NCBI GenBank assembly: GCA_903905585.1
Contig: CAIVHB010000007.1
Location: 1 to 64,000, forward strand
DNA from: an uncultured Ferrovum sp.
GTDB taxonomy: Bacteria; Pseudomonadota; Gammaproteobacteria; Burkholderiales; Ferrovaceae
Direction: 5' to 3'
Length of the DNA stretch: 64,000 bases
Position 1 is the first letter of the stretch; each line of letters opens with the position of its first letter. The notes under the pieces are model-generated. The model saw nothing but the letters and a program-made list of their open reading frames with translations. It did not search any database and was not told the origin of the DNA. A program made the position numbers and the translations under genes. Below, piece after piece: positions 37,259-64,000 of the stretch.

Positions 37259-37374
37259 ACATCGGGTAATGCGCCAAAGATTTTTTCTGAAGCGCAATAC
37301 AGTCTCGCCAGATGGCCCTTTTTCGCTATTTGGCGGGAGAGGTGCCTCTGGCTTTTTTTTATATGAGGTGTCTC

Positions 37375-38508
37375 ATGTATTTATTGCCTTTTGAAATTGT
37401 TTTTTATCTTGTTTGTATGATGGTGAGGAGTATGCGGTGGTTTGCAGAGAAGTTCATTCGAAGAACGCCCAAGTGGCGTTCGATGGCAGTGATGGCATTT
37501 CCTCAACAGCGTTTGGCGGCGGTTTCAGTGCCATCCAATGGTGAAGGGGATCAAGCGATGACTGATACGACTACTCAAGATTCTGATTCTGAAAAGGAGG
37601 AGATGGAAAGACGTGCTGCGTCTAACAATCCTTATGATGAAGCCTTTGGGAGTCGTGATTACACCCTTGCAAGTTTTCACACGAGAGAGGGAGATGGTTT
37701 CAAAATTGTCTTTCATTTTCAAGTGAAAAAACACCGCGTGCGGCGTGTGGTTTGGTTGGATTTCAGTCGTCTTGTTACCCGAATGGGGCGGGATGCTGCA
37801 TGGGCCATGCGCGCACGTTTAGGGCAGGCGCAAATGCGTTTTTCGGTCAGTGGGCCCGCTCATCCTTGGGGTCGACTGGAGTTGCCGGATGCGTGGTTGG
37901 AAATAGGATCTTCACGCGAGAGTAAAGCCAGGAGTTTTATGCTGGACACGCTTGATGCAGTCAATCAACTGATTGAGTTAGGCGGGATGGATCTTGTGTC
38001 TGGCCATCATCAAAGTTTGCCTGTGGGGGATCCTAAGCCTGTTGAGAGTGCAGATTCTTCCTCATCAAAAGGAGGAAAGCGCAGTCGTAAACACACTTCT
38101 CAATCTGATGCAGGAAAGATTCAGGCAAAGGGGACTTTGACTGGCAATGAGGAAGCGGGTTTATCCTCAAAGCCTAAAGTTGCTTTACCTGGTGTTGATC
38201 CGGCTGATGACCATCAAGGGTTGCCACCTGGTGTCACCCCTGAATACGTATGCTCGGGGATTTTGGCGGCAACAGGATTTACGGAACGCTCAGACTCTGC
38301 GGGGCGTCATTACCGTATTTTTTATGCGGATGTGGATACGGGTTCGGGTAAGTTGAATCGGCAAACCGGAACCGACCTAGAGCGAGCCCTGTATTCAGTG
38401 AAAGCCGAGGTTGGGATGCGAGTGCGTCTTCAGCATTTGGGACACGTTCCTGTCAATGGAGGTCGTTATCGCCGTAAAGTGTGGCAAGCAGCCGTTCTGG
38501 CTGGATGA
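37375..38508 (+). CDS. Orphan membrane-anchored protein with mobile-element-type C-terminal module
   Basis: Not recognised as a whole. A hydrophobic N-terminus (MYLLPFEIVFYLVCMMV) is followed by a basic stretch, so the bulk is probably cytoplasmic. Residues about 85-210 are an unassigned globular domain containing KIVFHFQVKKHRVRRVVWLD. A Ser/Lys-rich linker precedes the last 95 residues. That end (YRIFYADVDTG, TDLERALYSV, VGMRVRLQHLGHVPV, KVWQ) resembles a module at the ends of plasmid relaxases and primases. The start at 37375 is chosen for GAGGTG five bases upstream; ATGs at 37312 and 37363 are possible. Flanked by hairpins and a terminator. Confidence 0.7.
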   Translation: MYLLPFEIVFYLVCMMVRSMRWFAEKFIRRTPKWRSMAVMAFPQQRLAAVSVPSNGEGDQAMTDTTTQDSDSEKEEMERRAASNNPYDEAFGSRDYTLASFHTREGDGFKIVFHFQVKKHRVRRVVWLDFSRLVTRMGRDAAWAMRARLGQAQMRFSVSGPAHPWGRLELPDAWLEIGSSRESKARSFMLDTLDAVNQLIELGGMDLVSGHHQSLPVGDPKPVESADSSSSKGGKRSRKHTSQSDAGKIQAKGTLTGNEEAGLSSKPKVALPGVDPADDHQGLPPGVTPEYVCSGILAATGFTERSDSAGRHYRIFYADVDTGSGKLNRQTGTDLERALYSVKAEVGMRVRLQHLGHVPVNGGRYRRKVWQAAVLAG

Positions 38509-38527
38509 AAGCATTTCATTTTTTAAA

Positions 38528-38558
38528 GGCTACGGTGCATAACCGTAGCCTTTTTTTT
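38528..38558 (+). terminator. Intrinsic terminator of the orphan gene
   Basis: GGCTACGGT, loop GCATA, ACCGTAGCC and eight T: a perfect 9-bp GC-rich stem with a U tract, 19 bases after the stop at 38508. An upstream AAA run is too short to make a convincing terminator for degS on the other strand. Confidence 0.92.
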
Positions 38559-39714: not shown

Positions 39715-39878
39715 TAAAAATCTCCCGGCGATAATGGGGCGCATGCCCTTAGATGGTTCCATTTTCAAATAGATTGAACGATTGCGGTGCGAGCAGGGTA
39801 TTCAATTGAGTTGGCGTTGCATTGAGATATTGGGGCAATCTTCAGGAATTCCAAGGCTTAATTCTATGGTTTTAAATA

Positions 39879-39906
39879 TTGGCATGCTTTCTGCTTTATA
39901 TAAAAT
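39879..39906 (+). promoter_or_regulatory. Sigma-70-type promoter for a candidate small RNA
   Basis: TTGGCA, 16 bases, TAAAAT, each hexamer one mismatch from consensus. The predicted start lies near 39912. It drives the non-coding segment that ends at the strong terminator at 39971-40003. Confidence 0.6.
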
Positions 39907-39911
39907 GTGGG

Positions 39912-40003
39912 CATGGCTCTGTGACTATCGTCCGGATCCTTCCTCATTTTCTCCTCCGAGAGCGGCTTAACCCATCGGTACAGTGTACCGATGGGTTTTT
40001 TTT
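39912..40003 (+). ncRNA. Candidate small regulatory RNA with CU-rich anti-Shine-Dalgarno segment
   Basis: About 92 nucleotides between a good promoter and a very strong terminator, in a 340-bp gap between degS and a CbiB-like gene. GCTCT (39916-39920) can pair with AGAGC (39959-39963), leaving a loop that holds TCCTTCCTC and CTCCTCC (39951-39957). The latter is complementary to a Shine-Dalgarno sequence. The only ATG (39913) is followed by two codons and a stop, so it is not coding. The layout resembles CCUCCUCC-loop small RNAs known from Proteobacteria, but I do not recognise the family. The rest of the gap (39715-39878 and 40004-40054) shows nothing definite. Confidence 0.58.
39971..40003 (+). 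terminator. Perfect 11-bp stem terminator of the candidate small RNA
   Basis: CCCATCGGTAC, loop AGT, GTACCGATGGG, then eight T. Two A before the stem can extend it into the T run. This is the strongest intrinsic terminator in the window, and no protein gene precedes it on the same strand. Confidence 0.95.
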
Positions 40004-40054
40004 ATGTGTTAAATTCGCGATAAGCATTGTTGCCTATCTCCTGTGGTCTTTAGA

Positions 40055-40981
40055 ATGATTTTCTTGTCTGTCCTATCGGCGCTCATCCTAGAACATTATC
40101 TGAGCTGGAATCGTCGAGATCGCTTATCTGTCGGCTTTGATCGATGGAGCCAGATGTTGCGTGATGTGCTTGATTCTGGTGCAGAGCGGCACGGTATGCT
40201 GGCATGGTTCCTAGCCATCACCCCCCTCTTTTTATTTGGGGTAGCCATCCATGCATTGACGCTTCGTTTTGGTGGTGCGGGTTTAGCCTGGTTAATTGAT
40301 ACGCTTATTCTAGGGGCCATCGTTGACTTTAAAACGGTGTCTGATCGATTAGGTGAAATTGCTGTTGACCTAGAAGCCGAGAATATTGAAAAGGCTAAAG
40401 CGGCGATTGAGGCCTGGGAGGGTGCCCCGCTGCCGGGAGAATTCGATATTCCTGGGCTAGCATCCAGAGCAATCCAGTTGGCATTGCTTCATGCGCATAC
40501 GCGGGTTCTGGCTCCCCTTCTGTGGTATGTTCTTTTGCCCGGTGCATCGGGTCCTTTGTTGTATGTTGGGGCGTTAGCTTTGCGTCAAAGATGGCAATCT
40601 CCTCATGCTGACAATAGCCAGTTTCCTCGCTTTGCGATCAGTGCCATGCAATTTCTAGATTGGTTGCCTGCGCGCTTAACCGCTTTATCCTATGCAGTAG
40701 TGGGAAACTTTGAAGAGTCTTTTTTTTGCTGGAAAACGCAGGCTAAGTTGCAGTTACACGACGGGAGAAGAATTGTGCTCGCAGCCGGTGCAGGTGCCTT
40801 AGGCGTGCATTTTGAACCTGCTCCCACCCTGCCGTATGGGGTGATCAACGGGGAGCTTGGAACAGGTGATTTCCCCGGAGCCGATCATCTTGAAAACACC
40901 GAAGGTTTGTTAGCGCGTACTCTGGTTTTTGCTGTGGTGTTGTTGGGGCTGCTCACGCTGGCAAGCATAGTAGGCATTTAA
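40055..40981 (+). CDS. CobD/CbiB-related membrane protein
   Basis: Polytopic membrane protein of about 308 residues, with hydrophobic segments near 1-15, 50-72, 75-90, 150-180 and 285-305. Segments such as FEESFFCWKTQA and a C-terminal acidic stretch fit the CobD/CbiB family (adenosylcobinamide-phosphate synthase-like, also related to AmpE). In betaproteobacteria this version is encoded near rsgA or queG and its role in cobalamin synthesis is not proven. Start ATG 40055 is chosen; GTG 40043 is an alternative. It is convergent with rsgA. Confidence 0.7.
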   Translation: MIFLSVLSALILEHYLSWNRRDRLSVGFDRWSQMLRDVLDSGAERHGMLAWFLAITPLFLFGVAIHALTLRFGGAGLAWLIDTLILGAIVDFKTVSDRLGEIAVDLEAENIEKAKAAIEAWEGAPLPGEFDIPGLASRAIQLALLHAHTRVLAPLLWYVLLPGASGPLLYVGALALRQRWQSPHADNSQFPRFAISAMQFLDWLPARLTALSYAVVGNFEESFFCWKTQAKLQLHDGRRIVLAAGAGALGVHFEPAPTLPYGVINGELGTGDFPGADHLENTEGLLARTLVFAVVLLGLLTLASIVGI

Positions 40982-62808: not shown

Positions 62809-64000
62809 ATGGCTGGAGTATCATCCTTGGCCATGACCCTGCGTTCCCAAATAAATGTGTTCATCGCCCTGCTCATGGGCCTGTTTCTTGCCGCTGTCAT
62901 CGCGTTAGAGGTGGATGCTACACGCCGCAGTATTCGCGAGGAGATTGAGGCCTCTACCCGTATTACCTTACAGTTGTTGGGTACCGTGGTGGCGGATACG
63001 CAAGGACGAGGCGGAAACGTTTCGCCGCAACTGCTCACGAATTTTTTTCAGCACCTCGGGCGCGTGCGTGCCAACAGCATCAAACTGGAGGGTGCCGGCG
63101 GGCAAGTTTTTTATGTATCCCCCCAATCTCATTATAAAGAAGGCCGTTATGCGCCTGCGTGGTTTGTTGACTTGGTTACCCCTGTTGTCTTGCCTACCCA
63201 AATTCGAATTGCGGGGGGCCTGATCACTGTGACGCCTGATCCTTCACGATCGGTGGTCGATGCTTGGGATGATTTATCAAGCCTGCTACAGCTGGGTTTA
63301 GCCTTTTTAGCTTTGGTACTCGGCTTGGTATTTATTATGGCGGGCCGTTTGCTCTCCCCCTTGCAGATGATTGTTTCTGGGCTGCAACAAATGGAACGGG
63401 GTGAGTTTCATGCGCGCCTACCGGCTTTTAAAGTGACTGAACTCAATAGTTTGGCGGAGAGTTTTAATCGCATGGCACAAGCGGTAGAGGAGAGTTTTAC
63501 GCTTCGTCGAGAATCTGCCCAACGCGCCGAAGAGCTTCGTGAGAATCGCGCCGTCACTGCCCTCATTCAACAACATGTTGAAGCCGAACGGCGGGCCTTG
63601 GCGCGCGAATTGCATGATGAGCTTGGACAAGGTGTGACGGCTGTTCGAACGATTGCTTCATCGATTGCCCAACGGGCACATGAACGCGCTCCTGATTTAG
63701 AGGTCAATGCTTTAGCGATCGTTCAGGTCGCTGGCGAGATGTACGATGCCATGCACAGTATGGTGCGCCAACTCAGGCCCATTGCACTGGACAATCTTGG
63801 CTTAGCGGATGCCTTACGTGAGTTGGCGGCTAGCAGCCGACTGCGTAAGCCTGAACTTTCAGTGGATCTGGAATTGGGTGCCCATTTAGACGGCTTCGAT
63901 GAGCACACTAACATTACGGCTTATCGAATTATTCAGGAATCATTAACCAATGTGGCAAGGCATGCCGCAGCCGATACCGTGATTGTGCGTGTATCCCATC
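62809..64000 (+). CDS. MoxY-like sensor histidine kinase, partial at right edge
   Basis: Two-component kinase of the NarL/UhpB (HisKA_3) type, cut off after 397 residues. Order: transmembrane helix (about 12-34), periplasmic domain of about 125 residues like the N-terminal domain of LapD/MoxY proteins, second helix (about 161-183), HAMP domain (about 183-235), HisKA_3 with phospho-accepting His269 in ARELHDELGQG, then the start of HATPase with QESLTNVARHA. In methylotrophs MoxY acts with MoxX to control methanol dehydrogenase; the pqq genes beside it make that plausible. The partner regulator lies beyond the window. Confidence 0.88.
   Translation, partial: MAGVSSLAMTLRSQINVFIALLMGLFLAAVIALEVDATRRSIREEIEASTRITLQLLGTVVADTQGRGGNVSPQLLTNFFQHLGRVRANSIKLEGAGGQVFYVSPQSHYKEGRYAPAWFVDLVTPVVLPTQIRIAGGLITVTPDPSRSVVDAWDDLSSLLQLGLAFLALVLGLVFIMAGRLLSPLQMIVSGLQQMERGEFHARLPAFKVTELNSLAESFNRMAQAVEESFTLRRESAQRAEELRENRAVTALIQQHVEAERRALARELHDELGQGVTAVRTIASSIAQRAHERAPDLEVNALAIVQVAGEMYDAMHSMVRQLRPIALDNLGLADALRELAASSRLRKPELSVDLELGAHLDGFDEHTNITAYRIIQESLTNVARHAAADTVIVRVSH

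Follow-up and report, generated by a model that had tools for sequence, protein, structure and literature searches.

A candidate sigma-54-controlled small RNA carrying an anti-Shine-Dalgarno core in Ferrovum and two further families of its order

Small RNAs (sRNAs) under sigma-54 control, i.e., with a -24/-12 promoter and enhancer sites, are known elsewhere, among them NrsZ, Qrr, GlmY and CrcZ. In betaproteobacteria, CU-rich sRNAs directed at ribosome-binding sites are a known kind, represented by the Betaproteobacteria toxic sRNA family of Rfam (RF02278, with bdhR1, ncS03, ncS05, ncS27 and ncS62 as well as Hsnc059, Hsnc063, Hsnc086 and Hsnc107 of H. seropedicae) and by S17 of Bordetella pertussis. 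Toxicity to E. coli on overexpression is a trait of the RF02278 family. In the parts of the reports consulted here, RF02278-type and related CU-rich RNAs are predicted to cover ribosome-binding sites (PMC5688073, PMC7011215, PMC4603805), and action at the ribosome-binding site is shown for one target of S17, with transporters and a sigma-54 activator among the targets listed (PMC11722255). S17 is described there as made from a sigma-A promoter in the form of a ~190-nt precursor that is processed. NcS25 of Burkholderia cenocepacia is an 84-nt sRNA with a seed complementary to Shine-Dalgarno (SD) sequences and a target linked to nitrogen metabolism, and the consulted part of its description reports no upstream sigma-54 motif and unchanged levels under nitrogen depletion (PMC10117139).

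The window analysed here, the whole stretch of 64,000 nucleotides from an uncultured Ferrovum sp., very probably encodes a small regulatory RNA in a short stretch between two unrelated genes (Table 1). The sRNA gene itself is well supported, its anatomy, conservation and terminator being read from the sequence, and the proposal of the initial annotation that a stand-alone small RNA with an anti-SD element is located here was supported. The ends of the ~90-nt transcript it suggested barely shift (98 nt), but the regulatory logic differs. Its statement that no protein gene separates promoter and stem was borne out by the ORF list of the window, in which we judged no ORF between TTGGCA-16-TAAAAT and the terminator to be gene-like. 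By Pfam, the upstream neighbour, on the minus strand, encodes a DegS-like protease with trypsin and PDZ domains, and the genes downstream are for a protein resembling CobD/CbiB and AmpE, for RsgA and for an exonuclease of RNase_T type. The cobD/ampE-like ORF (40043-40981) lies on the same strand as the sRNA and starts ~40 bases past the T run, as would be expected if the element were a leader or attenuator of this gene with a conditional terminator. This is highly improbable, since at four other loci (L099, L100, L111 and L137) the next ORF of at least 80 aa is on the opposite strand while promoter, hairpin and core are still kept, and a leader function was ruled out by these differing neighbours. 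Among 22 loci compared, the next downstream ORF varies in kind and direction, an acyltransferase-like gene (named by eye) lies upstream in ten, and RsgA is encoded within ~2 kb downstream in the window, in four loci of the genus Ferrovum and in L099 of family f17. The RNA is retained in other families of the order next to different genes, which fits a trans-acting RNA, as had been suggested initially. Elsewhere in the window, a terminator-like stem of 12 pairs with a T run is found at 38525-38553 (+), after the ORF at 37312-38508.

Table 1. Predicted features of the sRNA locus in the 64,000-nucleotide window.
Feature	Position	Strand	Description
Possible activator site GAACGATTGCGGTGC	39776-39790	+	One mismatch to GCAC-N7-GTGC; 116-130 bases upstream of the predicted +1
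Sigma-54 -24/-12 element TTGGCATGCTTTCTGCT	39879-39895	+	GG 39881-39882, N10, GC 39893-39894; 11/13 consensus positions
Predicted sRNA transcript, 98 nt	39906-40003	+	+1 set 12 nt past the C of the -12 GC; ± few nt
5' stem-loop	39907-39947	+	Variable sequence; hairpin predicted in 21/21 members
Conserved core TTTCTCCTCCGAGAGCGG with anti-SD CTCCTCC	39948-39965	+	May fold as UUCUC-CUCC-GAGAG or CCG-AGAG-CGG
Intrinsic terminator	39968-40003	+	13-pair stem 39969-39997, T run 39996-40003

The genome of the window carries one full copy of the sRNA. Searches with a 171-base query gave a match at E <= 1 in 47 of 100 genomes, mostly weak and short, and at 1e-6 or better in five genomes of the genus including that of the window, the part common to the genus matches being TTTTCTCCTCCGAGAGCGGCTT plus the terminator. 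All five genomes sampled from the genus have core and terminator, as do members of two other families within the order. Of 399 genomes of the order, 13 contain the exact 16-mer TCTCCTCCGAGAGCGG, in 12 of them with an adjoining terminator by eye; in the remaining one (G168) the terminator is absent by eye and the match was treated as chance. A model of core and terminator (R1) likewise reached at least 55 bits in 13 of the 399 genomes, namely in two Ferrovum-genus genomes, a single genome of family f17 and ten of the twelve sampled f23 genomes, the next scores being 42.4 bits for a second copy in G246 and then at most 33.5; at E <= 0.1 it matched 286 of 399 genomes, nearly all weakly. Compared with the exact searches, the model added G216 as a member, whose core has one change. 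Of the many R1 places below 55 bits, from a search whose stricter filters can lose weak matches, 13 were read; twelve were RF02278-like or unrelated terminators and the other was the second G246 copy. This copy-like place (L203, G246:C47:54581-54635) has ATTCTCCTCCGAGAGCG and a terminator and, by eye, is without a sigma-54 element.

An exact scan of 84,980 species genomes for the 18-base core returned 41 loci, a set that overlaps those of the 16-mer and of R1 (L137, from strain GR16-43, is apparently G180) and in which the invariance of the core arises by construction and was therefore not counted as evidence. Loci with core and terminator were classed as members (21 of 41). L111 and L130 failed the perfect-stem rule of the script and were counted as members because folding gives a terminator there, whereas L122 was not counted despite a script-flagged 7-pair hairpin, its record being from another phylum and without a sigma-54 element. 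Members are partly close relatives, so the counts given below are not independent.

The predicted RNAs of the members are 74-99 nt long and consist of a 5' hairpin, followed by UUUCUCCUCCGAGAGCGG and the terminator. For the terminator, the perfect stem and the T run up to 40003 described initially are present, but the stem has 13 pairs around the loop AGT instead of 11 bp. Similarly, CTCCTCC and TCCTTCCTC were correctly located, the latter outside the conserved core, but the stem GCTCT/AGAGC thought to close a loop around them did not hold: GCTCT is found in the 5' arm of one of 21 members, the window itself, and folding instead gives the 5' hairpin and a small hairpin UUCUC-CUCC-GAGAG. The core can fold alternatively into this hairpin or into CCG-AGAG-CGG, and CUCCUCC may be either exposed or half masked by a hairpin of 5 pairs. 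The folding energy of the 93-nt RNA (z of -4.75 against dinucleotide shuffles) is low because of the terminator; for the 62 bases before it, z was -0.11 and 79 of 200 dinucleotide shuffles were equally good. Compared with mononucleotide shuffles, the mean z of the 5' arms was -3.9 over 21 members (-2.4 for the window), with values below -2 in 20 of them and of -1.0 in L121. Between the window and L121, its nearest relative, 18/18 positions are identical in the core, 36/38 in the terminator and 14/18 in the sigma-54 element, and the 5' arm (33/51) is no more conserved than the mid-intergenic region (61/100). Four small sets of 5' arms, compared without gaps, gave no informative covariation. No claim is made for covariation in the terminator, because the MAFFT alignment slips: the structure slid by -1 paired slightly better than the proposed one (70.1 vs. 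67.3% of cells).

Regarding transcription, TTGGCA-16-TAAAAT is present at 39879-39906 as annotated, but its reading as a sigma-70 promoter is at chance level and not conserved. Constitutive expression from such a promoter, the original proposal, could draw on a 10/12 match to sigma-70; however, two sites of this type were found in a 3-kb region where 2.9 are expected, and a -10-like hexamer near the proposed spacing is present in 2 of 21 homologous loci, one of them the window. The sigma-70 promoter was dropped on these grounds and the constitutive sRNA is quite improbable, though the window alone may have a second promoter of this kind. The sigma-54 element begins at the same base as the proposed sigma-70 promoter and is conserved among members. 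Scored at 13 positions against the sigma-54 consensus, the window element is weak alone, as the 64 kb contain two sites of at least 11/13 (1.1 expected) and eight of at least 10/13 (8.0 expected). Among members, GG-N10-GC at 10-12/13 is present in 20 of the 20 loci with enough upstream sequence (L133, with 17 bases, was left out) and starts 47-70 bases before the core, whereas the element is absent from all 20 loci that share the 18-mer but are not members (best score 9/13). One main reason for trusting the sigma-54 reading is that the predicted +1 largely coincides with the hairpin base: when folding was allowed to begin 25 bases earlier, the 5' boundary of the hairpin was at most 4 nt from the predicted +1 in 19 of 21 members, with -4 in the window and with L130 (-8) and L135 (-15) as exceptions. 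Taken together, these comparisons give good support to a promoter of sigma-54 type, in kind like those of NrsZ, Qrr, GlmY and CrcZ. As sigma-54 requires an activator, the sRNA gene should respond to a signal. Elsewhere in the window, the sigma-54-like element TTGGCGCGCGAATTGCA at 63598-63614 (+) scores 12/13, with 0.1 expected per 64 kb.

At gathering, no Rfam family matches the window or 15 member loci. The best sub-threshold match of the window is to RF02278 (21.2 vs. 50 bits required for gathering), and anti-hemB (RF02837) scores 18.8 vs. 49.5 bits. The window RNA might accordingly be regarded as a divergent member of RF02278 (bdhR1/NcS27/S17 group), i.e., a mere sequence variant, in support of which the copy of G047 reaches 33.5 bits against that family, and UCUCCUCC in the 5' part, the terminator, the short stand-alone format with hairpin and the likely action are common to both. 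We consider this improbable, since neither the window nor any of the 15 member loci reaches gathering and the window RNA is without the second CU-rich loop that RF02278 loci carry in a GC-rich CCACC/GGTGG-type hairpin. Moreover, a sigma-54 element of at least 10/13 within 100 bases was found at none of 28 RF02278 loci (26 above and two below gathering, with L060 and L063 dropped as short), and G053 carries this RNA and, elsewhere in its genome, an RF02278 match of 33.1 bits, below gathering. The first hairpin of RF02278 RNAs with its CU-rich loop (e.g., CCATCCTCCTCCTTTGGTGG) after TGTCTCCTCC is, by eye, absent from the window RNA and the members. S17, compared here by its description, is conserved in betaproteobacteria and shares with the window RNA the terminator end and the (here putative) direction at ribosome-binding sites; it differs in its promoter and processing, whereas the window RNA has a sigma-54 element and a +1 near the hairpin base. 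NcS25 was ruled out as a homologue by the absence of a sigma-54 motif in the consulted part of its description (PMC10117139). Searching the core strings in the open-access literature gave no related paper by title, and this RNA was not described in the consulted parts of open-access papers on NtrC/sigma-54 sRNAs and on small RNA of Ferrovum. The initial label "undescribed" is thus right as regards Rfam but too wide as regards kind: the window RNA would represent a new family within a known kind of sRNA, set apart by sigma-54 control.

A different CU-rich RNA, TCTCCTCCTCCTTTA followed by AAG and a terminator, was noticed at L067-L076, L078-L080 and L082-L084, in genomes of the family of the window, in G002 of its genus and in G053 of f23. 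In at least nine loci it lies directly after the end of a gene that we read as phasin-like.

For the activator, NtrC sites have the form GCAC-N7-GTGC and lie some 80-150 bases ahead of +1; we read the same spacing at P-II loci. With up to one mismatch, such a site was found ahead of the -24 box in 12 of 21 member upstreams (20 sites) vs. 2.5 ± 1.4 in shuffles, a count that includes close relatives. No other spacing of GCAC..GTGC is as enriched, the others occurring in 1-8 of 21 upstreams. None of the 21 upstreams has an exact site and nine lack one even at one mismatch; the site of the window alone is no better than chance, and TGCGGTGC is retained in its closest relative. The opposite orientation, GTGC..GCAC, is equally enriched (N3 and N6 in 12 of 21 each at one mismatch), with exact GTGC-N6-GCAC in eight and TGGTGC-N6-GCACCA in seven of the 21. 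The latter was dropped as a dedicated sRNA site after an occurrence search of seven f23 genomes, with places compared by eye: G180, G275 and G360 have one occurrence each, at the sRNA, G332 has two, one of them at the sRNA, G385 has one away from it, and G053 and G409 have none. By eye, GCACC-N5-GGTGC adjoins the sigma-54 element at five P-II loci of 18 scanned, each of them from a genome that also carries the sRNA. In Ferrovum, including the genome of the window, P-II loci that have a sigma-54 element have no perfect dyad.

The genome of the window encodes two clear sigma-54 activators, L140 and L141, besides three weaker Pfam activator-domain matches. L140 adjoins an NtrB-like kinase, the NtrB/NtrC naming being our own reading, and L141 is another two-component regulator. 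Activation by an L141-type regulator or another signal in place of NtrC is a serious, if less favoured, possibility, given the presence of two clear activators and given that TGGTGC-N6-GCACCA and exact GTGC-N6-GCAC differ from the arrangement at P-II loci. By contrast, the enrichment of the P-II spacing and the fact that the everted pair of L109 can also be read as a pair of neighbouring N7 sites at a distance of 21 bp speak for NtrC, which is a plausible activator of the sRNA.

With respect to targets, UUUCUCCUCC is complementary to GGAGGAGAAA. GGAGGAGAA followed by ATG after 2-9 bases occurs four times in the genome of the window (reversed control 0), one of these, the start of sucC, being the only real gene start. 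G004 likewise has four occurrences (control 1), and no ORF of 60 aa starts at any of these; G003 has one. In G180, apparently GR16-43, there are 14 occurrences (control 1), of which 12 open an ORF of at least 60 aa. Conserved pairing with sucC was ruled out, as the full complement is not retained across the genus, where the sucC leader retains GGAGGA or GAGGAGGA. Among the GGAGGAGAA genes of G180 (L217-L235), an export-like hydrophobic start was found in 11 of 12 by script and in 12 of 12 by eye, compared with 4 of 9 for AAAGGAGAA with the same script; by eye they encode TonB-dependent receptors, Bug/TctC-type and other solute-binding proteins, a TRAP-type protein and secreted enzymes. In the locus list, L245 is a second start of L244. 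This export bias is suggestive in a small sample and may just mirror strong SDs of genes for exported proteins. A link between the SD type GGAGGAGAA and export in G180 is possible as such. Published relatives are reported, in the parts consulted, to target transporters and carbon-uptake genes (PMC11722255, PMC5688073).

Overall, we think it probable that the locus encodes a sigma-54-controlled trans-acting sRNA that masks SD sequences, with NtrC perhaps as its activator. RNA polymerase with sigma-54 would be held at TTGGCATGCTTTCTGCT until an enhancer-binding activator acts, possibly NtrC under nitrogen limitation, bound ~100 bases upstream. Activation would then yield an RNA of ~98 nt, composed of the 5' hairpin, UUUCUCCUCC as a copy of the anti-SD of 16S rRNA and the terminator with its U tail. 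U tails of this kind are bound by Hfq, and we infer that Hfq might bind here too and that the CU-rich segment would pair with GGAGGAG(AAA) in the ribosome-binding sites of some mRNAs, blocking translation initiation. The targets are possibly uptake and envelope genes and some central metabolism, repressed during starvation. A more specific version, offered tentatively and with the chances rather against it, is a nitrogen-starvation switch of NtrC and sigma-54 in which the free anti-SD RNA and the ribosome would compete for the strongest SDs and translation of a class of exported and transport proteins would be stopped.

So far, Ferrovum and two further families in its order are the groups in which the RNA with core, terminator and sigma-54 element has been found. 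Because such a promoter depends on an activator, the inducing condition should be directly testable, e.g., in GR16-43, whose complete genome is named and has a strong copy of the sRNA. If correct, this reading adds a family absent from Rfam 15 and places an anti-SD sRNA under sigma-54, whereas the related sRNAs with discussed promoters, S17 and NcS25, are not sigma-54 driven according to the consulted parts of their descriptions (PMC11722255, PMC10117139).
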